In this document: one piece after another, positions 4,634-21,718 of the stretch
Layout of the letters: every line of letters starts with the position of its first letter
Position numbering within the stretch: the stretch's first letter is position 1
Assembly (NCBI GenBank): GCA_000310025.1
Contig: FN648195.1
Span: forward strand, 3,025 to 25,077
Direction: 5' to 3'
Source of the DNA: Ectocarpus siliculosus
Taxonomy: Eukaryota; Sar; Phaeophyceae; Ectocarpales; Ectocarpaceae
Length of the DNA stretch: 22,053 nt
Notes under the pieces: generated by a model
Database searches by the model: none
What the model saw: only the letters and a program-made list of their open reading frames with translations
What the model was told of the DNA's origin: nothing
Made by a program: the position numbers and the translations under genes

Positions 4634-4783
4634 CTAGTAATTAGAATCCTGTTCACGGACATGTTGTCGAACACGCTCTAGGCCGGTCTGAGTGTCGGTC
4701 GTGTACTGGTGATGCTTCCACATCCTTGTCCTTCGGATGGAGTACGCCGTCTCCAGAAGTGGAATCGCCTCGTTGTGTTTGCC
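4634..4783 (-). CDS. Terminal TPR exon with stop codon
   Basis: After acceptor CCCGCAG the exon reads GKHNEAIPLLETAYSIRRT, then a degenerate C-terminal half ending VRQHVREQDSNY and TAG: 49 codons. It keeps the GK..EA..L signature of the cassettes but replaces the LNNRA..L.Q half with a charged helix, as expected of a capping repeat. Confidence 0.8.
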   Translation of the reverse strand, partial: GKHNEAIPLLETAYSIRRTRMWKHHQYTTDTQTGLERVRQHVREQDSNY

Positions 4784-7700
4784 CTGCGGGACATTCGAGA
4801 TGTTTGCTAGGACGAAAAAAATAATCACGTACAGCGCCCGACTTAACTAAGAAGTTGGCAGTTGAGAAATTGAGCCTCAACAAACTCCAAATCCAACAAC
4901 TTGAGCCTCATTTGTGTAAGAACCCCTACACTAAATCCTACATTGCGATCATTCGCAGCATAACCCTAGGAGCCAAATACAGTACAGTACTGCAAGCACC
5001 GCAGCCTCGACAAAACTGGAGGTCCCTTTTAGTGCGGGCGCTTTCTGTACGCGACAGCATATGTCAACGAGGCTAAACAGCGGCTAGTTCCCCCATCAGA
5101 CAAAATGCAAAACACGTTGGAAGACGTGATCGAGCCAGATTGCACAATAAACCTCATCCACACATGCGAAACTCAGCTTAAGACGGATTATTGTCACAAA
5201 ATGCGTTGACGCCATACGAGTACATTGGGAACCAAAAACTTTCTTCTGCAAGAATCCCACGGCTCTTACCTGGCTCTCTAACACCCGCGCCCAGTTGTGT
5301 AAGCTTGTGGCGACCTCAGGGTGGTCAGGACCACAAACCTTCTCAAATACAGCAAGCGAGCCCTTGAACAGCGGCTCCGCCTCGTTATACATCCCCTGTA
5401 GAACGTGACGACAATTTGTGCAAGAAAAAAGTGGGGGGGCATACATGCGTACACGCACGGGAAACAATGCTTGCTCAACAACGTCTTTGCTCCATGTGGT
5501 TGTTGAACATCCACAGGGTACAGATTAAGAAAAATTCCATGAAGGAAAAACAGCTCAAATGTTTGCGAAAACTAGAAAAAAGAGCTACAGTACAGTACGG
5601 GCCCGCAGATAAAGAAAAATTCTGTTAAGAAAAAAAGGCTCAACTTTTTACGAAAAATAAGAAACCAGGGCTAAGAAACACAGCTCAATCTCGGCCACAA
5701 CATAAGAAACGTCCCAACAAGAAACATGATGGTGCGATACCCTCACGACATAAGAAACAACGGGTAGCTGGGCGAGCGTGTCCAATAAGAAACGCCCCAC
5801 AGCTGCTCCTTCCGTGCCCCCACCCCCCTACCTAGCTGTGAACAGTGCACTTTTTTTTTTTTTGTGGGGAGGGAGGATGGTTACATATTTTCAGTTCCGT
5901 CTCTTCGAGAAGACCGGCCCGGCGATGACGGCCGACGGCTCTGGGGATGACCGCATCAACCTCGAAGGCCTTTCCGGGCCGTACACCTTCATGGACCTTC
6001 ATGGACGTGTAGAATGACGACAGCTCTGGTGAGGTGGACGAGGAAGGCGACAGCAGCCCTTCCGCAATGGACAAAAGGCGACGGTAACTTGGACAACCAA
6101 TCGTTGGACGGGTCTTCCAGCGGTGACGAGAGCGACCGAATCACCAACGGGCAACGGCAGTGAGGATCCCCTCGCCCAGATTGACGATGACGACGATTTG
6201 TCGTCTGAGGAGGAGATGCTCAGGATGGGTGTCCCGAACGGGTTTCGTCTCCAGGCGTCTCGACCACCGGCCCTTGATCAGTCCTGAGTGAAGCGAGGGG
6301 TGCTCGTAAAACTTGGTTTGGGTTGGTTCGGGGGACTCATCACTTGTAGAGCATCTCGAAGTTCTCCTCACACCTACGACTACTGCGTCACGCTGCACTC
6401 GGATGGAGGCGTCAAGTTGCCGTTGGAGTTCTATAGCAAGGATGAAGCTGCAGCCATTGGGGTGTGGGTGTTTCTAGAGGTGGACCAGGAAGAGGGAGTC
6501 AAGAAGTCCCGGAGGGGGACAACCCTCAATGTTCGCCACACCGAGCTTTCTGGATAATGCTCCATAAATGTTCGGTGTGTTGTGGTATCCTTAGCCAGAA
6601 ACAAGAAAATAAAAAATAAAAAATAAGAAAATGAGGAGGATGCGACCGTCCAAAGGAATAAGAAATGCCTTTTAAGAAAATGGACGACTTCGGCTTGTCC
6701 TTCGACCCCAAACAAGGGATTGAGCCTCAACCCGATTTTGACGTTTCTTATCTCCGGGCACGTGCTGTAGAAACACAGCTCTCTCGGCCACAACGTAATA
6801 AACGTTCCAATAAGAACCATGATCGTGCGATACCCCCAAGGCATAAGTAAGGGGTCGCGTCCTACTTTTCGATTTGCTTTCACCCCCTAATGTAGCTGTA
6901 GTGCAATGTCCCAGGGGGGAAGAATTAATCTTTCGCGGCGCCCCCCCGGCGCCAAAACAAAAAAAGCCGCCGCGGGCCACCACATAGGTATATTGATAGC
7001 ACTCACCTTCCGCCTCCCCTCTTGAGGGCTTGAACAAGTTGTTTTTTTGTCCTCAGAATTCAGAATGAGTCTTGTTGTGGTATTCAAAAGCAAGAAATAA
7101 GAAAATCGACAGTAAGAAAACCAGCAGGACAAGACAGCTCCAAACACTGAGAAACCCGTTGAAAGAAAATGGATGACCCCGGCAGCCGTTCGACCCAAAA
7201 TAAGGAATTGAGGCTCGACTCGATTTTTACGTTTGTTGTCCCCGGGTCCGTTCTGTACCACAGGAACATTCCTGGAAAATTCTGATGACTCTCACCTGCC
7301 GGTACAACAACCCCGCCTGGTTGTTTAGGTCCACAGCCACTCGTGGGTGTTGTGGGCCAAGGGCTGCCTCATTGATGGCGGCCGCTCGTACATATAGAGA
7401 GTCTACTTCCTTATACTTGCCCTGGAATGTAGCGTTAGGTTGCAGAAGACAGGATGTGGTCGAGGTAAGAAATCCGGAGGACAAATACATGCTCAACAAA
7501 GGCCGGGTGTCAGCGTCGTAGCCAAAATGTAGATGCTCAGGCGCCAGAGTCTTGCGCTCCACCGCCTGACAGAGCAGCTCGGCCTCTGCGTAACTTGCCT
7601 TGGAATGTAAGGGAAAGACGGGCGTGGGTCGTAATGATGTTAACACACGTAAATTGCACTACTGTGGAGCAATACATGCTCAACAACCCCGCCCCGTTTG

Positions 7701-10700
7701 AGGAACGTGATTGTTGTACCTTTTTGCTGCTGCCGCCTTAAGCCTGTGATATGAAGTGAAAACGTTCGGTGCGCTGGCGAGGGCTGGTGTACGCGGAGGC
7801 AGAGCAGAGAACCTTGTCGTGGTAGCTTTGCTAGGCCAAGAGAATTCAGCTGCGGCGAAGAAGAGAAGAAAAAAAGTCTCCAACAAGAAGTCAAAATGAT
7901 GGACAGACGTTTAGAAAGCAATGCTTGTGTCGCTTCGTTTGAAATCCCTACGACAAAAGTTGAGGTTTCGGTCGCGCTAAGGCACCGCTGCGGTCTCGTG
8001 CGCGTAGCTTCCGTGAGCTCAGGGTGCTGGCTGCCAGACTAATAGAAAAACGTTTTCAAGAGTCGATTATGTAAATGCATAGGCTATTTTGTTTTGGGAG
8101 GCAGGATTGGAATGACAGCCCGTAGAGTGGGACGGTCTCAGTATACTCGTCATGGTATGAGGTGAACAACGCACGCGGCAGAGAGTCTGATCAGTCTACA
8201 GCAGCCAAATTGAGTTCTAGAACAACAAGCAGAAATATTTGCCCTCCACAAGCACCTGCGGTAGAAGCAACGCGTGCTCCTCACCTGGCGTTGCAACAGC
8301 TCCGCCCTGTTGTTGAGCACCGAAGCCACATCAGGGTGATCCGGACCTAACACCTTCTCCCGTATGGCCTGTGACCGCTTGTAGAGTCTCTCCGACTCAG
8401 CGTGGTTGCCCTGTGCAATACGAAGTGGATTCTCGGTCACCCAGCGGTAAAACGTTCTAGCTGTTGTGTTCTGACTCCACACCGTGGGTATTGGATTGGA
8501 TGATGCCTCCTGTGCCAGACGACGTGGTCCCGCCCGTCCTTCGTTTCCTCCATTGTTTCCTCCATTGACTTCTCTGTCGTGACCACTTCGGCGAGACGAG
8601 AATTCACCCAAACTTCCTCCGTCCATCCCGGCACCTACTTACGGTCCCGCGCATGCCGTCAATTCTTGTCTAAACTTGGGGGACAAGGGCAGATCACTAG
8701 CGTCGGCGTATCTCTGAACCCCACGAAATGTCCAGGGAAAAACATACAGGCTCTCACCTTGGCTCGCAACAACCCCGCCCGGTTGTTATACGCTGTGGCA
8801 ACGGTTGGGTGCTCAAGACCTAACGCTTTCTCCCAAATCTTGGTGGTCAGCTCATGCAGTGGCTCAGCTTTCCGCGTACTTGCCCTGTGAAAAGAGGGGT
8901 GATGATGTACGTGGCAGCCAACAGTTCCAGAACGTTTCGCCGCGCAATTCGCGCCCTAAAACGTCTTCTGACTCATTTCTTCAACTCGCACGTGCGACCC
9001 CAACAACTCCGCCCGGTTGCTGAGGACTACAACATCCACTGGCACCCCCGAAGAAAATTCCTGGAAAAAAATTAACGGCTCTCACCTGCTTCTTCAACAA
9101 CCCCGCCCGGTTGTTGAGCCATGCGGCAAGATCTGGGTGGTCAGGGCCCAACGTTTTCTCTCCAATATCAATAGCTCGAAGGTACAGAGAGTCCGCCTCC
9201 GCATACTTGCCCTGGAAGTGGAAATGAAGGCATCGTGCGAACGTGGTCAAGGCGAGTAGAGCTCACTTCGGATGAACTAATGCTCAACAACCAGCACCCC
9301 CAAAGCTCGGACGTTCAACGCGCCTGTCTCCTCGTACTTACCCTGGAAACTTGGGGGCGGCAACGCGATGGGAATGAGATCAAGGGTAGATCGAACTGCG
9401 GAGGAGCAAATTGTCGACAAGCACGCCCGGTTGTTGGGCGTCGTGGCCACATCCGGCTTCTGCGGCGAACCCAGCACCTTCTCTGAGACTGCTCGTACAG
9501 TGGCCCTCGGCCTCAGGTACTTGCCATGCCACGCTGCCGCAGACGGCGTCGCAAAGTGGTGCCACATACATGCATACATAGTGTAGTCAGAGTGGCCCAG
9601 AACGTTCCCTCCCATGCCCTGTGACCACTCACAGAATGGCTCTTGTCTGCGTTTGGTTGTGCCTTGAGATGTGGTGAACAACAACAACGAGTCGGACTTT
9701 TAGTCAGGATGAGATCTAGAAGAAATTGCGGGGAGAACGGTTCCTTCTAGAATATTCTACATAATACGAGCATCGTGTTGCCTCTCACCTGGATCGTCAA
9801 CGACCCCGCCCGGTTGTTGAGCACTGTCGCAACCACAACATGATCCGGACCGAACACCCTCTCTCGAATGGCCTGTGACCGCCTATAGAGTGGCTCGGCC
9901 TCGGCATATTTGCCCTGTGACACAAGGAGTGGGATGGGGTAAGTGAGTGGACAAAACATCGAAAATAAGATGCCAACAAACGCACGCCCCGTAAAAATTC
10001 CTGAAAATTTCATTGGACTCTCTCACCTGTGCCGCGAAAAATCCCGCCCAGTTGTTGAGTGTTACGGCCACATGCGGGTGCCCAGGACCCAAGGCCTTCC
10101 TTAATATCGCGTGGGATTGCTCATACAGTGGTTCGGCCTCAATGTGTTTGCCCTGGCATACAGTTGTAGAAAACGTGGCAAAAGTTGTACTTCCTCTGTA
10201 TCATAAGTCCGTGCCGTTATGGGCGCTCAGTCGTTGGGGTACTTAAACGTTGACATTTAGCCTTTGACCGGGTGCGTTAGAAAGGCAAAGAGCATACGAA
10301 GATGACTAAAAAAAAAAAAAATCGAAGACCGTGTTACACACTAAAATTAGGTCAAAATATGCCCATTTTGGCCGTATTTCGGTATAAATTATTGAGAACT
10401 ATTTTGAGAATTTTACGACTTCGCAGTAGAACACACCGGGGTCAGAAAGCGATAGAGGGAAGGGACGTTGGAGAGGGTGGTAAAATACGATAAGGAGGCT
10501 TTTGAGAAGGCTTACGCCTGGATGGCATCGAGTCCCAGCGACAGAGAGGACGACTAATCGAGTTTTTCCCTTTCTTTTCCCCCGACAGCAACAGACACTT
10601 TTTTTACCCCGCAAGTGTCTTGGTTTTAGTGTGGGAAATCCAAGTGTCTTGGTTTTAATGTGGAACCGAAATTGTCTTGTTTTTTGTGTGGGGTCACGAT

Positions 10701-13700
10701 TATACTGGTTTGAGTATTGGCGGACGCGGCACGTATCGTTGAGTAGGAGGGGGGGGTTGGGTTCGGGCACTACTGTTGTTTGTTGCCCCGCAAGTGTCTC
10801 GTTTCTTGTGTGGGGCCTCCAAGTGTCTTGGTTTTAGTGTGTAACTCCCAAGTGTCTTGATTTGAGTGTGGGGGTCACTATTATACTGGTTTTAGTATGG
10901 GGGGCGCGTTTGGCTGATGGAGTATAGGAGGGGGGTTATCTTTGGGGTGGGGATAATTCTTGAGTTTTTGGGGGCGGGACAGGCGTTTAGCCCCACCCAC
11001 CCCCTACCTGGAAAAGGGCAAAATATGGCCGTTTTTAGGCCAACTCAATGTTTTCCGGCCGTTCAGCCGCATGGTTCAAGCACCAACTAAAAAAAAAGAA
11101 AAGTGTTTTTTCTTGCTCAATAAAACGACGGACAATTCAACGAAAAAATCGGAAAACAGATCGGACACCGTTAAGGGGGCGCAAAAACATAACGGCACAG
11201 ACTTATGATACAGAGGAAGTATAAATGTAGCTCAGTCAGAAAGGGGTCTACAACAGCGGAGAAACACTATCTTCATCCACGCCCGGCCGGTTGTTGAGCC
11301 CCTGGGCGACAGCAGGGTGCTCCAGGTCCACAACCGTCCCTCGTATGGTTTGTCGCCGCTGGTAGAGTGGGTCGGTCTCAGCACTTGCCATGGTACTGTA
11401 TGCGGCGAACAGCGCGGCAGAGAGTCGGATTTCAGGCAAACTGTTCTACTGTAGAATTGACTGCAGGAATGTTTTCTTCCTGTAGCATATAAATACAAGA
11501 GTCGTTTGACTCTCGCCTGTGCCCTCAATAACTCCGCCCGGTTGTTGAACGAGGTGGCCGGATCTGGGTGATCGCGGCTTCTCCGCAACCTCAATCGCTC
11601 GAAGGTAGAGAGGGTCCGCCTCGGTATACTTTCCCTGGAAGGGGGGGGCCAAGAACGAAAGGGCGTACGCGAAGGTTGGGTACGGCATATGTTTCGGAGG
11701 AACAAGGCTCAACAGCCGGGGGGGGGGTGCTGAGCGACAGGGCAACACCGGGGTGCTCCGAATTTAGCGCCCTCTCTCTCTCGTATGGCCTATGACAGCT
11801 CAAGGCCTCAGCATGCTTGCTGTGCGGAACAAGCGGTGGGTGGTTGCTAGGGAGCGGTTGCGTGTTTCGTGTGCAGGCTGCGAGTGAGTTCGGTCAACCA
11901 GTAGTTTTGACACATCGGTAGGTACGCCACGACTCACATGGCAGTGCACCCCTCGCTCTCTCTCATAGCCCTGTTGAGTAGCGAAGAGAGAACCAAACAT
12001 CGTTGCGGCCCCCCGGGCCAAGATACGCTGGGCCATGTGCCGCCTAACAACATTCCCTCGGCGCGTTCTGATAGTGGTCGGAATTGAGCTGCTTGTTGCA
12101 CCTGACCTGTTTCTCCAAAACAAGGGCCCTGGCCTGTTTCTCTAAAACAAGGGCGAGCCTCGCCCTGGCTGCGTTAGCACGGAGCAATGCCCGTCTCGAT
12201 TCCTTGCTGTCGTAGTCCTCGGCCACACGTGCGTCGTTCTCGGCACCCTTAGGTAGCTGGTGCGTTTTACAGACCACAAACGGAAGCACGGGAACAAATG
12301 TTGTGAATAGATGGCATACCATACGCCGACAACGTGTCTATTGAAGAGGTGCTCTAACATACACAATACGTGCAAACACAAGATAAGACGCCAACTGCTG
12401 TATACATGCGTGCAACCTGTATCTCCCACAACTGGTGTATCTCCAAAACGCACTGCACCTTTCGGTGACTCTCCTCGGCCAGATCGTATTGTCCGGCAGC
12501 GCGCTGCAAGTCCGGTAGGCAGAACCCAGTCTCACGCCAGTTTTGCCCAGCCAGGCGCATCATCTCCTTCATAACCTCGGGGGATAGGTTCTTCCACAGG
12601 TCTTCGCCACGCATGTCGGTGGTCACGTTGAGCTCCCGCGCCCACTCGTAAACGACGTGCTGGCCGCCTTTCAACGCGAAGAATTCGCGGAGGTGCAGCT
12701 GAATCTCACACACGTGGTCGTTCACGACGGGGTTCAGCTTCACATCCCGGTACCCGCTAGGCATCCAGTCGGAGTTGAAGCCGTTCTTCACCCGCAGAAT
12801 ATCTTGCTGTATGAGAGATTCACAACGGTAGCAGAAACCAGGTCGTATCTTGAGTTGAACGGTGTGGAATACGGAGTATTTTTTTAGGATGGCCACTTGC
12901 AGGTCTCGAAGAAGTTCAGATACTGGGGACAACTCGTTGGTAGTATGGATGCTGACCTGTACTCTCTCATCTACGGGAGATGACGAATTACTGCTGCGGA
13001 ATAGCTAGGAGGATAGCTGCTTTTTGGATTTTTTCATCGATATTGTTTCATGGCGATTGGAGATGCGCTCCCACGACAAGGTAATGACGAGTTACAGATG
13101 AGGCTTTGATTCAAAAATGGGGGCGATTTTCTTGGGCATGTTTTCGCGCTGCTGGCGATCGCACGCACGAGGCCTTAAAAATGAGGCGCACGCACAAAAC
13201 CTTAAATGGAGGTGCCAAGGAAACCTTGACGAAAAGGAGGAGTCCAAACTTGCGTACCAACGGCGGGGCTGGTTCGTGAACATTCTATGTGCTCTGCACA
13301 CCATCAGCGCTGGCTTGCTATGTCACTGAGGGTAAAGCCATGCCCACGTTGAAAACGTCGATGCCCATCCAGTAGCAATCCGTATTCAGTACCACGGGCT
13401 GTCCGCTCAGAATCATCGAAATCAGAGGCTCCGATAATGCTGATCGCGCGTTCGTGGGGCGGCCATAAACGAGTGAACCGCAGCATGTCCCTCCGTTCTC
13501 AGTGTGGTATAGCCGCACTCCCGCCGAGGTTTGTACCTGGGGGTTGCCCGGCCCGCTCTGGCTCACTGGTCGCAGCCGAACTCCACCGAGCTGCAACCCA
13601 GCTCAACCTCCACCACGGGCCATTCGATATTTGCCGCGCACTCGACTCGATCTCTAGGTGTCTAGATGTGATACTCACAGTAAACATCCGCTACACTTTG

Positions 13701-14582
13701 TTGTGAGGATCTTTCGGGCTATCTCTTGGTCAAAGTCTGGATGCACAATTCCGGCTAACACCGAGCCTAGCAACATAACGGCAGAGCAAGCAAGACCTGA
13801 ATGACTAGTAAACACAAAGAGCAAATTAGGCGTACAGTAGTTAAACGAGAAGGCGAACTTGAAATCGGGTACACAAAATCCCCAAGCATCACGGTCGTTA
13901 TCGGATCGCTAAATTTGTGCACAACACAAGCAGCACAACAAGGTGTTTTCTGGTTTCTTAAAGTTGCCTAAGTACCAATTTTATTTCAGGCGAACGAGTT
14001 ACAACACCGCAAATCTGCATGTCCTACTACTCACCTTGGGCAATTCCATGATAGCCAAGTACGCCTCTTTCAGAGCCTCCGGTGTGGCGCAGATCACAGT
14101 CACCCTGGTCATGTCAGCAACCTTTCTGACGTCCCCACCATAGGAGTTGCTGGCTTTCCGTCGCGTGCTTTCCCATGACTTGACATCCGCGCATTGAACC
14201 TTATACTTGCTCGAGTCGTGTGCAACCTTCGTTACGAGCTCGTCCAAATGCGGCTTTGCAAGCTCAGCGTCCGCAAGACAGAACTGTAGCTGGTTTTCAA
14301 GTTGCCCGCCTTCTTCGCAGTTCTGTGGGTCCAAGACCTTGGGTTGGACGATGCCCGTCCACCGAGCCGGGGCGATGCTGCGGAGGCATTCAAGCCCTCC
14401 CTCTTTGTTGAGCTCGTAGTACAAATCGTCGTAGGCGAGTTGAAACTGCACGACCGTCCGGACCTGGAGGCACTTGAGAGGATATTCATCTTGGCGTCTA
14501 GAATGACAGGCGATGTTTCACCTTCACATGAGGCCTTGAGCTCGTTCTCCAGACGGAGAAGCTCCTCGATGTCGACATTCAT
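4634..14582 (-). CDS. RelA/SpoT-like domain plus TPR-cassette gene (multi-exon; frameshifted as read)
   Basis: Minus-strand exons, in order: 14582-14035 and 12806-12417 (RelA/SpoT-like domain), 12247-12107 (helical linker), TPR cassettes 10152-10027, 9914-9789, 9211-9086, 8410-8285, 7421-7296 and 5395-5270, then terminal exon 4783-4634 with TAG. Every boundary is phase 0, with GT-AG introns, so about 660 codons join if a 2-nt insertion near 14484 is discounted. The N-terminal region has DVRKVADMTRVTVIC and GYRDVKLN...CEIQL, resembling the Asp- and Glu-bearing strands of RelA/SpoT (p)ppGpp synthetase folds. The TPRs are of the kinesin-light-chain type and predict a protein-binding solenoid. 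A symmetric exon can be skipped or added without a frame change. Broken cassette 8884-8758 and several decayed ones lie in the introns. The gene may be a pseudogene or a rapidly evolving receptor-like gene. Alarmone synthesis itself is not shown. Confidence 0.75.
5270..5395 (-). CDS. Intact TPR cassette exon
   Basis: Exactly 126 nt and phase 0 at both ends. It starts GMYNEAEPLF and contains CGPDHPEVATSLHNWA. Acceptor CTACAG|GGG, donor CAG|GTAAGAG. Confidence 0.85.
5520..5800 (+). repeat. TAAGAAA-rich repeat, copy 1
   Basis: The heptamer TAAGAAA occurs at 5526, 5626, 5658, 5672, 5703, 5751 and 5786. The block 5675-5757 matches 6773-6848 closely (ACACAGCTC, TCTCGGCCACAAC, CGTGCGATACCC-like words in the same order). 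It is therefore one member of a dispersed or locally duplicated repeat sitting in an intron of the TPR gene. Confidence 0.65.
5890..6557 (+). pseudogene. Decayed coding sequence, probably from a repeated element
   Basis: Several frames carry acidic, serine-rich coding-like pieces (EVDEEGDSSPSAMDKRRR, GSSSGDESDRITN, QIDDDDDLSSEEEM). These are followed, after an in-frame TGA at 6285-6287, by a compact domain-like stretch from 6288: VLVKLGLGWFGGLI, YDYCVTLHSDGGVKLPLEFY, VWVFLEVDQEEG. Pieces are linked only through frame changes. I do not recognise the family. The beta-rich WFGGLI...KLPL region resembles a small chromatin-reader-like barrel only in outline. It lies opposite to the TPR gene, in its intron. 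Confidence 0.45.
6567..6850 (+). repeat. TAAGAAA-rich repeat, copy 2
   Basis: It contains TAAGAAA at 6624, 6659 and 6673, then GAAAATGGACGACTTCGGC, ATTGAGCCTCAACCCGATTT and the CTCTCGGCCACAACG block shared with copy 1. Its first two thirds match 7055-7262. Confidence 0.65.
7055..7262 (+). repeat. TAAGAAA-rich repeat, copy 3
   Basis: It shares with copy 2 the order TTGTTGTGGTAT, CAAGAAATAAGAAAA, GAAAATGGATGACCCCGGC, AATTGAGGCTCGACTCGATT and CCCCGGGTCCGTTCTGTA. It is truncated before the CTCGGCCACAAC block. Confidence 0.6.
7296..7421 (-). CDS. Intact TPR cassette exon
   Basis: 126 nt, phase 0-0. It starts GKYKEVDSLYVRAAA and contains LGPQHPRVAVDLNNQAGLL. Acceptor TTCCAG|GGC, donor CAG|GTGAGAGTC. 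Confidence 0.85.
7478..7599 (-). pseudogene. Decayed TPR cassette
   Basis: The unit reads YAEAELLCQAVERKTLAPEH after an inserted T, then loses the pattern. The acceptor has mutated from CCAG|GGC to CCAA|GGC, and no donor is left at the 3' end. Confidence 0.65.
7665..7712 (-). pseudogene. TPR cassette fragment
   Basis: Only the GGGGCGGGGTTGTTGAGC stretch of the cassette's 3' half survives. The adjoining GAGCATGTATT is shared with the decayed copy at 7478-7599, so the two may be related duplicates. Confidence 0.4.
8285..8410 (-). CDS. Intact TPR cassette exon
   Basis: 126 nt, phase 0-0. It starts GNHAESERLYKRSQAIREK and contains LGPDHPDVASVLNNRAELL. Acceptor GCACAG|GGC, donor CAG|GTGAGG. Confidence 0.88.
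8758..8884 (-). pseudogene. TPR cassette exon broken by a 1-nt insertion
   Basis: Splice sites are intact (CACAG|GGC and AAG|GTGAGAGCC), but the unit is 127 nt instead of 126. An extra A in GGAAAGCTGAG (a three-base run) brings a TGA within seven codons. Apart from that base the unit has the normal pattern, ending NNRAGLLRAK. It is either a sequencing error, a recently dead cassette or an exon that is skipped. Confidence 0.75.
8990..9045 (-). pseudogene. TPR cassette fragment (3' half)
   Basis: The fragment reads VVLSNRAELLGSH with a following GTGCGAG. The first two thirds of the cassette are missing. It lies immediately 3' of the intact exon 9086-9211. Confidence 0.55.
9086..9211 (-). CDS. 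Intact TPR cassette exon
   Basis: 126 nt, phase 0-0. It starts GKYAEADSLYLRAIDIGEK and contains LGPDHPDLAAWLNNRAGLL. Acceptor TTCCAG|GGC, donor CAG|GTGAGAGCC. This is the clearest consensus member of the array. Confidence 0.9.
9279..9342 (-). pseudogene. TPR cassette with internal deletion
   Basis: The acceptor TTTCCAG|GGT is intact and the unit starts GKYEETGALNVRAL. It then jumps to the terminal GTTGTTGAGCA block and a stop. About half of the 126 nt is missing. Confidence 0.6.
9402..9525 (-). pseudogene. Decayed TPR cassette
   Basis: The front frame gives PEAEGHCTSS. The second half in another frame gives AVSEKVLG and KPDVATTPNNRACL. The acceptor has changed from CAG|GGC to CAT|GGC, there is at least one frameshift, and the donor is lost. 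Confidence 0.7.
9585..9663 (-). pseudogene. Truncated TPR cassette (5' two thirds)
   Basis: The unit reads GTTKRRQEPFCEWSQGMGG, then NVLGHSDYT, collinear with GKYAEAEPLYERSQAIREK plus LGPDHPDVA. The acceptor is CAA instead of CAG, and the LNNRA part is absent. Confidence 0.6.
9789..9914 (-). CDS. Intact TPR cassette exon
   Basis: 126 nt, phase 0-0. It starts GKYAEAEPLYRRSQAIRER and contains FGPDHVVVATVLNNRAGSL. The usual HPxVA reads HVVVA. Acceptor TCACAG|GGC, donor CAG|GTGAGAGGC. Confidence 0.87.
10027..10152 (-). CDS. Intact TPR cassette exon (first after the linker)
   Basis: 126 nt, phase 0-0. It starts GKHIEAEPLYEQSHAI and ends LNNWAGFFAAQ. Acceptor TGCCAG|GGC, donor CAG|GTGAGAGAG. It contains no internal ATG, so it is easy to miss when only ATG-started frames are considered. 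Confidence 0.87.
10188..11221. mobile_element. 1,034-bp TIR element with TA boundaries (Tc1/mariner- or MITE-like, non-autonomous)
   Basis: The left end starts TACTTCCTCTGTATCATAAG (10188-10221) and recurs as reverse complement at 11188-11221; 33 of 34 positions match. The outermost TA at each end can be read as a TA target-site duplication, leaving CTTCCTCTGT as the terminus. This is reminiscent of Stowaway/mariner ends. No transposase is visible inside. The interior is AT-rich at both ends (poly-A near 10306 and 11088) and holds a minisatellite. It sits in the intron between the linker exon and the first TPR cassette. Confidence 0.75.
10611..10940. repeat. Higher-order minisatellite inside the TIR element
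   Basis: Units of about 28 bp based on CAAGTGTCTTGGTTTTAGTG recur at 10612, 10642, 10791, 10820 and 10849, with a diverged one at 10671. They are organised in two ~179-bp blocks starting at 10611 and 10790. Each block ends with TATACTGGTTT, AGTAT and a G-rich run. Confidence 0.85.
11268..11389 (-). pseudogene. Decayed TPR cassette
   Basis: The unit reads AETDPLYQRRQTIRG and DLEHPAVAQGLNNRPG in one frame, so the body is still open. The acceptor is CCAT|GGC, two bases are missing near the start, and the donor is gone. Confidence 0.7.
11517..11634 (-). pseudogene. TPR cassette with 8-nt net deletion and GC donor
   Basis: The acceptor CCAG|GGA is intact and the start reads GKYTEADPLYLRAIEVAEK. 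The frame then shifts, and DHPDPATSFNNRAELL follows in another frame. The length is 118 nt instead of 126. The donor is CAG|GCGAGAG, a GC site. Confidence 0.75.
11702..11820 (-). pseudogene. Decayed TPR cassette
   Basis: The unit reads YERERALNSEHPGVALSLS, preceded by AAGCATGCTGAGGCC (KHAEA). The acceptor CAG|GGC has lost two G residues, and a C run replaces the NNRA codons. No donor remains. Confidence 0.65.
12107..12247 (-). CDS. Helical linker exon between RelA/SpoT-like domain and TPRs
   Basis: 141 nt (47 codons), phase 0-0, reading GAENDARVAEDYDSKESRR and then an Ala/Leu/Arg-rich helix ending VLEKQARALVLEKQ. Acceptor CTAAG|GGT, donor CAG|GTCAGG. The last nine codons (ARALVLEKQ) repeat the preceding unit by a 27-nt tandem duplication. 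It directly precedes the TPR array in gene order. Confidence 0.75.
12417..12806 (-). CDS. RelA/SpoT-like domain exon 2 and linker helix
   Basis: 390 nt (130 codons), phase 0-0, acceptor ATACAG|CAA and donor CAG|GTTGCA. Residues about 18-36 (SGYRDVKLNPVVNDHVCEIQ) match the strand region of RelA/SpoT synthetase folds that carries the E-x-Q motif. Next comes HLREFFALKGGQHVVYEWAR, then a helical segment and a first TPR-like start (AAGQYDLAEESHRK). It joins in phase to the preceding exon ending AIMELPK, so no additional exon is needed in the 1.2-kb intron. The same frame stays open upstream of the acceptor by chance. Confidence 0.75.
12807..14034 (-). other. Intron of the RelA/SpoT-TPR gene
   Basis: This 1.2-kb stretch is bounded by AAG|GTGAGTAG and ATACAG. 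Open frames at about 13318-13706 on both strands show no recognised motif. I see no further exon. Confidence 0.6.
14035..14582 (-). CDS. RelA/SpoT-like domain exon 1, with a 2-nt frameshift
   Basis: The exon follows poly-T and ACCGTAG. Its first codons are ATG AAT GTC, reading MNVDIEELLRLENELKAS. Around 14484 the sequence ATCCTCTCAAG switches frame; ATCCTCAAG would keep it open. The second frame continues QFQLAYDDLYYELNKEGG and ends YGGDVRKVADMTR, VTVICATPEALKEAYLAIME. The length is 548 nt, two more than a multiple of three, while the donor phase is 0. A 2-nt insertion in a CT repeat therefore explains it exactly. STRRKAS and ADMTRVTV resemble the basic loop and the Asp strand of RelA/SpoT folds. 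ATG is the first codon after the acceptor, so whether this is the true start is open. Confidence 0.7.
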
Positions 14583-16594: not shown

Positions 16595-16802
16595 TGTAGC
16601 GAAGAGAAGATTTAGTACCGTACATTTGGTTTATTTTTTACCTCTGCTTCCCTGCTCAGTGACGCTCAACCAGGTGCCCTTCCTTGTCTCAGGCTGTCTG
16701 TAGCGAAGAGAAGATTTAGTACCGTACATTTGGTTTATTTTTTACCTCTGCTTCCCTGCTCAGTGACGCTCAACCAGGTGCCCTTCCTTGTCTCAGGCTG
16801 TC
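16595..16802. repeat. Perfect 104-bp tandem duplication
   Basis: 16595-16698 and 16699-16802 are identical base for base as read, starting TGTAGCGAAGAGAAGA and ending CAGGCTGTC. Absence of any divergence points to a recent event or an assembly duplication. Confidence 0.95.
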
Positions 16803-19780: not shown

Positions 19781-20560
19781 GTGTGTGTGTGTGTGTGTGT
19801 GTGTGTGTTGCTTTAGTTAACATCGACCGCGCTAACCAGTTGACCGATAAGAAGACGTGCGTCTTACATGTGTGTGTGTTTTCGCCCCATCTGTTCTGAG
19901 AGGGCACGATGGCTCAAAACAGGCTTATTGAGTAGATGGGAACACCGGTGAATAGCGACTCCAACTGTAGTTTGGCACCGTGCGATTGCGGAGAAAGTAT
20001 GTTTATCTCTCTTGTGCAGCACGTCGAGGTAATGCCTGCTTGAATGCTGGGATCACGAGGTCAAGCCTTTGAGCCTTCAGAAACCGAACACAAACACGCG
20101 GGGCAACACACAGGACGACACCATACGCCGTGCATCCGCCTGAACCAGGGACGCCCAGCGCAAGACCGCGGCTGTTGTTATCATCCGATTGCATGTCTCT
20201 CTTTGCCCGTTCACCTGCGGAGCCCCCCCTCCCCCCCCTCCTCTTCGTCGTTTCCATTGAATCGCGTGTGACGTTTCGTACAGGTGGGACTGCTGGGAGA
20301 CCGACAGACGAGGGCGCACGGCGCTGTTCTGGGCAGCCGGCGGGGGCTCCGTAGAGGCATGCAAGGCGTTAGTGGAGGGGGAGGGGGGGCTCCGGCCGCA
20401 AGATTCAGGCGGCGACGGGTCGACTCCGCTGCACTGGGCGGTGGCCGGGGTGGAGACGAGACGATTCGGCACCGGCGGGCACGTCAACGTAGGTGCATGC
20501 CGTTTTGTCTGTCCCGCTCCCTGTTGTCTCTGTGTCTTTCTGTCGCTCTCTCTCTCTCTC

Positions 20561-20615
<55 letters not shown>

Positions 20616-20620
20616 TTCTC

Positions 20621-20700
<80 letters not shown>

Positions 20701-20775
20701 TTTCTCCCTCTCTGTGTCTTTCTGTCTCTGTCTCTCAGTCCCTTTCTCTCGCCTTCCTCCTGTGTGTGCTTCTTC

Positions 20776-20856
<81 letters not shown>

Positions 20857-21718
20857 ATCTACGGTTGCCCACCTATCCACAACCTCCTCACCACCGTCCA
20901 CACTTCACCGTGGCTGCCATCGCAATTTCTTCCGTGCCGCAGGTCTGCCGGTGGCTCCTGGACCTCGGCGTCGACACCAAGGCGAGAACCTCCGAGGGAA
21001 ACACGGTCGTCATGTGGGCAGCGTGGGCGGGGGGTCTCGACGCCACGAGGTTCGACAACGGCGGTGCCCCTCTTGTTTTGCCAAAGTTTACAAGCGTACT
21101 CCGACAATAACAATTGACACCCTCACGCGCAAGGCCGCGCAAACTTTGAGTGGTAGGGTAGGGCACGAAGAACGACGAACGAAATGATTGCTAGAATTGG
21201 TGTGCAACACATCAAACAGCATTTCGCGCCTTCCTGCCTGTTGGCTGACGCTTATTTGTTGTCGAGGATGAATTGTGCAAATAACCGTTCATTTATCAGT
21301 TGACCCGCCCCGCAGAAGGAGAGGTTCCGGAAGACAAGAGTGGTGGAAATTTCGCTTTGTGGTTGTCTCGGATTGGTTCGGGGGGGGGGAAAGATTTGCG
21401 AAGGATTTTTTTCGAGGGACAATCAAGCTCACACACGGCCGACCTCATTCTCTCTCTCCCTCCTTTTACTTCACGGAAATGACTCAGGTGGTCCTTGACT
21501 CGCGTTGACAGCTGAGAAGGCTTCGCTTGGCCCCGTTGTTTCAACACCTCAACACCAGACAAATGATGATTGGTGACAGCAACAACTACTACAACCAACA
21601 ACAATAACGATAGGTGGGCAGTGGAGGAGGCTGGCGCACTTGATGTGGACGCGGCCAACGCGAACGGGTGCACCGTGGCTCACTGGGCCTCGTCGGGCGG
21701 CGACGAGGCTGTTTGCAG
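19662..21718 (+). CDS. Ankyrin-repeat protein gene, 5' part (continues beyond the window)
   Basis: Four exons join in phase: 19662-19780, 20284-20488, 20943-21049 and 21614-21718. The ATG at 19662 is the first after an in-frame TGA at 19632. The product starts MVPGREVSDYRRFEQAF, then FDAARKGDGETLRLLRSHG. Later ankyrin units include RGRTALFWAAGGGSVEACK, GSTPLHWAV, HVNVCRWLLDLGVD, GNTVVMWAAWAGGLDATR and GCTVAHWASSGG. Ankyrin repeats mediate protein-protein binding; no catalytic domain is visible. The last exon ends at VCR with donor GTACGC, so further repeats lie to the right of the window. Confidence 0.8.
19781..19850 (+). repeat. (GT)14 tract and fourth copy of the dispersed element
   Basis: (GT)14 at 19781-19808 leads after 12 nt to CATCGACCGCGCTAAC (19821-19836), then CAGTTGACCGATAAG. 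This is the same order as in the three minus-strand copies at 100-384, where the GT-rich tail is shorter. The copy starts exactly at the exon 1 splice donor. Confidence 0.8.
20284..20488 (+). CDS. Ankyrin gene exon 2
   Basis: One base plus 68 codons, acceptor TTTCGTACAG|G and donor AAC|GTAGGT. It codes DRRGRTALFWAAGGGSVEAC and DGSTPLHWAVAGV, i.e. about two ankyrin units. The phases fit both neighbours. Confidence 0.8.
20521..20855 (+). repeat. Long CT/CTGT microsatellite in ankyrin intron 2
   Basis: About 335 bp are almost purely pyrimidine on the plus strand. (CT)n runs are interspersed with (CTGT)n. The tract fills most of the intron 20489-20942 and creates artificial Leu/Ser-rich frames. 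Confidence 0.95.
20943..21049 (+). CDS. Ankyrin gene exon 3
   Basis: 35 codons plus two bases, acceptor GTGCCGCAG|GTC and donor ACGAG|GTTCG. It reads VCRWLLDLGVDTKAR and SEGNTVVMWAAWAGGLDAT, completing one repeat and starting another. Confidence 0.8.
21050..21613 (+). other. Ankyrin gene intron 3
   Basis: The intron is bounded by GTTCGA and CGATAG. It contains no recognisable exon. The acceptor lacks a clear pyrimidine tract; it is preceded by an AAC/ACA-rich stretch. Confidence 0.6.
21614..21718 (+). CDS. Ankyrin gene exon 4
   Basis: One base plus 34 codons and two bases, acceptor ACGATAG|G and donor TTTGCAG|GTACGC. It reads WAVEEAGALDVDAANANG and CTVAHWASSGGDEAVC, a full ankyrin unit. The phase continues exon 3. 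Confidence 0.78.

Follow-up and report, generated by a model that had tools for sequence, protein, structure and literature searches.

RESULTS

A predicted gene with a SYNTH-like head and one-repeat exons

We analyzed a 22,053-nt stretch of the genome of the brown alga Ectocarpus siliculosus (contig FN648195.1, positions 3,025 to 25,077; C458:3025-25077 in the numbering used here), referred to below as the window, and searched the genome (189,456,909 bases in 492 contigs) for related loci. On its minus strand, the window carries a predicted gene in which two exons for a head resembling the synthetase (SYNTH) domain of RelA/SpoT proteins are followed by a linker exon, six tetratricopeptide repeat (TPR) exons of 126 nt, here called cassettes, and a terminal exon. 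The exons, together with cassette remnants in the introns, are listed below in the order of reading.

14035..14582, minus strand: head exon 1, 548 nt; N-terminal helices and first half of the SYNTH-like domain
12459..12806, minus strand: head exon 2, 348 nt, phase 0-0; second half of the SYNTH-like domain, with the motifs GYRDVK and CEIQL; donor AAG/GTGCAG
12107..12256, minus strand: linker exon, 150 nt, phase 0-0
11509..11634, minus strand: decayed intronic cassette with an internal frame change; end approximate
11266..11391, minus strand: decayed intronic cassette, AG acceptor lost; ends approximate
10027..10152, minus strand: TPR cassette 1, 126 nt
9789..9914, minus strand: TPR cassette 2, 126 nt
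9409..9534, minus strand: decayed cassette remnant; ends approximate
9086..9211, minus strand: TPR cassette 3, 126 nt
8758..8883, minus strand: decayed cassette with an out-of-frame acceptor end, GT retained; ends approximate
8285..8410, minus strand: TPR cassette 4, 126 nt
7296..7421, minus strand: TPR cassette 5, 126 nt
5270..5395, minus strand: TPR cassette 6, 126 nt; 75% match to two cassettes of an NB-ARC locus on the same contig
4634..4783, minus strand: terminal exon, 150 nt, coding for 49 amino acids and a TAG stop at 4634; half repeat plus capping stretch

As the initial annotation had stated, the six cassettes are each exactly 126 nt long and in phase 0. All of them are open, preceded by AG and followed by GT, and when concatenated (252 amino acids) they matched TPR_12 with an E value of 7.9e-66 and TPR_10 with an E value of 5e-64. 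The same annotation had assigned one TPR to each exon. This holds for the amount, one unit per exon, and not for the boundaries: in the helix register that follows from the TPR numbering, each cassette reads as a circularly permuted TPR, made of helix B of one repeat and helix A of the next. Toward its C-terminus, the linker exon is similar to a TPR helix A, and this helix would make the first permuted unit complete. Look-alikes were recognized by eye for the linker exon, 3' of exon 2 in L011 and L017, and for the terminal exon, at the array ends of C30a (272955), C30b (679358), and C10 (347916). The end of exon 2, previously placed at 12417, was moved to 12459 because the homology boundary of the family puts the donor there. 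Each of the four decayed intronic cassettes reaches 8 bits or more. In addition, a segment of ~1.05 kb (10178-11231) within the intron preceding cassette 1 is bounded by 44-nt inverted repeats (89%) and has the appearance of a small DNA transposon; a clear target-site duplication was not found at this insert. Scanning the window for Rfam families and tRNAs gave no hits.

The head belongs to a dispersed gene family

With the window included, 16 matches to exon 1 and 16 matches to exon 2 were found in the genome. Pairing them by position gave 14 loci with both exons open, plus the window; at C24, exon 1 contains a stop and the exon 2 match is absent, and at C15, only an exon 2 fragment is present. 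On these counts, the window locus is one member of a dispersed family with about 14 intact-looking genes elsewhere in the genome. We assigned the splice sites of the family from shared homology boundaries. Some donors are weak, the exon 1 donor of C20 is GC, and the exon 2 match of C25 continues into a TGA just past the assigned donor.

In all 14 comparison loci, exon 1 has a single open frame from the start codon to the assigned donor. By contrast, the ATG and the donor of the window exon 1 lie in different frames. The ATG-led frame stops after 116 amino acids, and the RelA/SpoT-like residues are encoded in a non-ATG frame, with the changeover near 14470. Because of this difference from the other 14 loci, the window copy is probably a pseudogene or carries an assembly error. 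The readable part of its head gave dN/dS values of 0.25-0.36 against the nearest relatives (six pairs), so that any loss of the window copy would be recent.

An additional exon upstream of exon 1 is likely, because AG lies immediately 5' of the start codon in the window and in 13 of the 14 comparison loci and because C10 has GTG at the start-codon position. A family-wide conserved coding exon was not found in ~1.3 kb upstream of exon 1 (2.5 kb for the window), and the upstream matches were between close pairs only. Blocks at about -200 to -310 upstream of 14582 are 78-80% alike between the window and C30a, C30b, or C20.

Relationship of the head to RelA/SpoT synthetases

The family profile matched two Photobacterium open reading frames (ORFs) with E values of 1.4e-18 and 2.6e-15, in alignments spanning the exon 1/2 junction, and the solved synthetase Tas1 with an E value of 3.4e-5, a match that derives from exon 1. 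One of the Photobacterium ORFs itself matches Tas1 and YwaC. The initial annotation had proposed a search of the two N-terminal exons with the Pfam profile PF04607 (RelA_SpoT; gathering score, 27 bits). Neither window exon alone was matched, and the joined exons reached 18.8 bits, which is under the cut-off. Matches were obtained in 7 of the 14 relatives (best E value, 1.2e-4; 21.4 bits for member 1), all of them below the cut-off. When the genome was searched with PF04607, two other loci (L001 and L002) and none of the head family were found, and the head profile did not match L001 or L002 (best score, -1.0 bits). HD, TGS, and ACT domains were unmatched in the 14 two-exon heads, a search that covered exons 1 and 2. 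The absence of NB-ARC from the head end, as first annotated, was confirmed, since none of the 27 NB-ARC matches in the genome lies in the window. By sequence, membership of the head in the RelA/SpoT SYNTH superfamily is well supported. The N-terminal RelA/SpoT-like fold of the initial annotation thus stands at the level of the superfamily, by the family profile, and fails as a single open frame in the window. Among the relatives found, the head appears nearest to the branch of toxic small alarmone synthetases (toxSAS) and exported synthetases (Tas1/Apk1-like): the D-x-x-R pattern is present, and Tas1 is the closest solved relative.

The heads were also run against Pfam, NCBIfam, PADLOC, and PHROGs. 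PADLOC returned two single-member matches (best, 0.011), which were taken as noise. In PHROGs, phrog_7625 ("head morphogenesis") was matched by 3 of the 14 heads (1.7e-5) and phrog_37685 by 5 (2.4e-4). Scans of viral and genome contig collections with the head alignment gave 14 and 21 pattern matches and no confirmed relative, with patterns so strict that this result says nothing on absence from bacteria. A tblastn search with a single head (C4) gave no phage match and one plasmid record. A plasmid of Photobacterium sp. DA100 (L054) carries two adjacent unannotated SYNTH-type ORFs with hydrophobic N-termini, and two Deinococcus plasmids carry more distant relatives.

Active-site columns were located with our own alignment against the catalytic residue lists of FaRel2 and SaEAS in PMC11782079 and PMC12691689. 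Seven columns do not vary among the 14 heads, namely those corresponding to FaRel2 K66, K74, D90, Y128, E145, and Q147 and to SaEAS R124; the S70 column is kept in 13. The donor-site lysines, the Mg aspartate, the acceptor tyrosine, and E-x-Q are all unchanged in the 14 heads. At the level of sequence, most active-site positions are retained and the head is under constraint.

Cassette arrays differ in number and follow two types of head

Cassettes were surveyed in ten head-bearing stretches of the genome, including the window, with a threshold of at least 8 bits. Among the 129 cassette matches, 93 were intact, that is, open, 126 nt long, and with AG and GT/GC exactly at their borders, a recurrence that places the 126-nt layout beyond chance. 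The eight stretches of 20-22 kb contained 6 (window), 10 (C30a), 8 (C30b), 11 (C10), 13 (C18), 6 (C25), 12 (C9b), and 11 (C16) intact cassettes, and related loci within the genome thus differ over a range of 6 to 13; the 10-kb stretches of C20 and C15 contained 4 and 12. Inspection by eye identified the terminal exon in four of these stretches (the window, C30a, C30b, and C10) and in no others, and the remaining counts are possibly incomplete. Decayed cassettes are present also at loci with open heads.

Introns flanking the cassettes of C30a and C30b were compared, with a MAFFT alignment of 13 of their cassettes as the source of homology. Part of the pairs were clearly alike, with values reaching 0.85 on the upstream side and 0.88 on the downstream side. 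The C30a cassette at 277398 has its best upstream partner in C30b 676191 (0.85) and its best downstream partner in C30b 676923 (0.81), a split that would be expected from unequal exchange. A permissive intron aligner called 1,059 cassette pairs similar; this result was not credible and was discarded.

For comparison of the cassettes themselves, the 93 intact units were combined with five from the NB-ARC locus on the contig of the window, giving a set of 98, of which 24 have their best match within their own locus. In the 2.1-kb piece of the NB-ARC locus, AG precedes all five cassettes and GT follows after exactly 126 nt in three. These five are of the same sequence type as the cassettes behind SYNTH-like heads, and two of them are the closest to window cassette 6 among the 97 others compared. 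Two NB-ARC-locus cassettes, C458:257192 and 258076 (L053), are identical, lie 884 nt apart, and are identical for 165 nt onward; where a GT donor would normally stand, both lack it.

Furthermore, the best 150 of 616 candidate cassette hits were scored across the genome. Of these, 87 lie downstream of an NB-ARC match, 44 downstream of a SYNTH-like head, and 19 downstream of neither, with the distance limited to 25 kb in each case. The arrays with neither head match, which include C5:226103-228197, C12:258736, C43:57964, C16:825060, and C10:3224580, might carry further head types. CHAT gave no match and NACHT one weak match, and neither explains the 19 of 150 hits outside both groups. The COR-A profile had one match in the genome.

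Variability and substitution in the cassettes

TPR numbering and ligand positions were applied to the cassettes. The six most variable positions include 13, 12, 9, and 2. A ligand set named beforehand (2, 5, 9, 12, 13, 33, and 34) had a mean entropy of 2.87, compared with 1.90 overall (21/20,000 permutations). The set 2, 9, 12, and 13, picked after the variability had been seen by dropping the conserved position 5 and the two linker-side positions, had a mean entropy of 3.39 (1/20,000 permutations). Differences in cassette copy number and variability focused on the surface are both shown by the sequences. In five close cassette pairs, the ratio of nonsynonymous to synonymous differences per site (pN/pS) was 1.15 (18.3/143.2 synonymous; 71.7/486.8 nonsynonymous), a value inflated because two of the five pairs were selected for low dS. 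The corresponding value for the C30a-C30b head was 0.40 (Fisher p=0.0007).

Other features of the window

An ankyrin-repeat coding stretch (Ank_2, E value of 4.4e-9) lies on the plus strand at 20261-20500 and runs into a CT-rich simple repeat at 20461-20884. A perfect tandem duplication of 104 nt was found at 16595-16802. Near the left end, a 62-nt repeat occurs three times in direct orientation (92-378) and has inverted relatives ~19.5 kb away at 19795-19865; it is possibly the end of a dispersed mobile element. Two copies of a 69-nt sequence, 91% alike and spaced by 72 nt, are located at 1047-1187.

DISCUSSION

We consider it an even bet that the family encodes autoinhibited effector/sensor proteins built from a SYNTH head, a helical linker, a TPR solenoid of one-repeat exons, and a cap, the window copy, as assembled, being probably no longer functional. 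The parts match those of a sensor and effector in one chain: the head is enzyme-like and under constraint, the repeats vary, and their exons leave the frame intact. The SYNTH head would be the effector and would move pyrophosphate from ATP to a nucleotide or tRNA, which would arrest or kill the cell. The TPR array would keep the head inactive and, as the sensor, would bind a foreign or altered protein and so free the pyrophosphokinase. Gain, loss, exchange, and perhaps skipping of exons would diversify the sensor with the frame preserved. Such a design would act like bacterial CapRel, with the TPR array replacing its sensor domain, and we infer a role in recognition or immunity from this analogy.

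The brown-algal NB-ARC-TPR genes (Teng 2024, PMC11378527) likewise have shuffled TPR exons with one TPR unit per exon; in the genes described here, a SYNTH-like head replaces the NB-ARC NTPase, and no switch ATPase is seen. The brown-algal LRR-ROCO genes share the combination of an exon-per-repeat sensor with a constant head, and alternative splicing is reported for them, but their LRR exons are of 72 bp and phase 2, and the head is ROC-COR (PMC11378527). CapRel (PMC9712102, PMC11782079) has an N-terminal toxSYNTH-type domain and then a C-terminal sensor in one chain, and the exon order of the present genes fits such an arrangement, with the TPR array as the candidate sensor. The CapRel sensor is a pseudo-zinc-finger domain rather than a TPR array, and its C-terminal domain keeps the toxic N-terminus in check and also senses a capsid protein (PMC9712102). 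Tas1/Apk1 and the exported alarmone synthetases (PMC12691689) include the closest solved relative by sequence and have D-x-x-R and E-x-Q in common with the heads; they are secreted or injected, whereas the head here is fused to TPRs. Fungal NOD-like receptors (PMC4986451, PMC10197012) also place a RelA/SpoT-type N-terminal effector on a eukaryotic repeat protein, but with a NOD ATPase between head and repeats, and such exon cassettes are not mentioned for them in the text consulted.

Several observations weigh against an active synthetase under the control of a diversifying sensor. The window copy is out of frame as assembled, and a search with exon 2 by itself gave no convincing match to a solved relative (best, 0.13). 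Conservation fails at the columns that correspond to FaRel2 R64, R77, and R95, the SaEAS N169 column is D in all 14 heads and in both bacterial ORFs, and 5 of the 14 keep the lysine that the bacterial ORFs have at column 189. Because of these deviations, part of the family may lack activity or act on a different substrate. On the cassette side, comparison of the same five pairs with the C33-C29 head gave p=0.06, and the three pairs selected by intron similarity gave 14/43 versus 53/73 (p=0.031). The ratio at TPR positions 2, 9, 12, and 13 in the five pairs was not higher than elsewhere (0.69 versus 1.29), and 179 pairs with dS below 0.6 gave a pN/pS of 0.70 (ligand set, 0.64; rest, 0.69). Since the choice of pairs is biased, the ligand positions do not drive the ratio, and the 179-pair ratio is 0.70, diversifying selection on the cassettes is suggestive, not proven.

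Repeat proteins often expand through tandem duplication. The cassettes could accordingly be plain repeat expansion, and the head a SYNTH fold with lost or altered chemistry that serves as a binding or dimerization module in TPR adaptors of ordinary signaling. We regard this as unlikely, if deserving of attention: the unconserved R64, R77, and R95 equivalents, the column-189 lysine in 5 of 14, the sub-threshold RelA_SpoT scores, and the mixed site test for diversifying selection speak for it, but the catalytic aspartate, both donor-site lysines, the acceptor tyrosine, and the E.Q pair are invariant in all 14 heads, and variation is highest at ligand-face positions. A separate possibility, which concerns the window alone and is compatible with an effector/sensor family, is that this locus is a dead copy with no present function. 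The out-of-frame exon 1, the four decayed cassettes, and the inverted-repeat-bounded insert at 10178-11231 make this rather probable. Nevertheless, open frames and splice signals are retained in exon 2, the linker, all six cassettes, and the terminal exon, the dN/dS of the head against six relatives would make any loss recent, decayed cassettes occur also at open-head loci, and the break could be an assembly error.

The heads could instead make (p)ppGpp for the plastid like the canonical algal RelA/SpoT homologs (RSH), with the TPRs serving plastid or metabolic regulation. The heads are of the same superfamily, plastid RSH enzymes occur in algae (PMC6881373), and divergent small synthetases are reported from heterokont algae (PMC3153485). 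We nevertheless judge this very improbable, as L001 and L002 are unmatched by the head profile, HD and TGS are unmatched in the two-exon heads, and, of the relatives found, Tas1-like and exported-type ORFs are the closest. Least credible of all, and close to negligible, is a decayed NB-ARC-TPR receptor with a chance resemblance to RelA/SpoT. Similar cassettes do lie downstream of NB-ARC heads, but the head is kept in 14 loci, the bacterial ORFs match it at an E value of 1e-18, and the window has none of the 27 NB-ARC matches.

The effector/sensor reading can be extended, tentatively and at clearly less than even chances, to an additional, CapRel-like class of putative immune receptors in a multicellular alga. 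In this class, a toxic alarmone synthetase or tRNA pyrophosphokinase would be fused directly to a TPR sensor without an ATPase switch, and the sensor would come from a set of cassette exons akin to that used by the NB-ARC receptors. One recognition module would then serve two effector heads of unrelated type, and perhaps others, given the arrays that lie behind neither head. In the literature seen, no description was found of RelA/SpoT-type heads on TPR genes of brown algae, although Zambounis 2012 and Teng 2023 might mention them; the terms "RelA" and "SpoT" are absent from PMC9815663. Such genes may be labeled TPR-only by annotation pipelines, and so are easily missed, because the heads score under the Pfam cut-off. 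The candidate brown-algal immune receptors named in PMC11378527 are NB-ARC-TPR and LRR-ROCO genes. Brown algae represent a separate origin of complex multicellularity. If the proposed reading is true, the presence of another effector head, unrelated to the first, on this type of sensor would show the cassette array to be a portable recognition module, and a eukaryotic gene family would be linked to bacterial defense of the toxSAS type.

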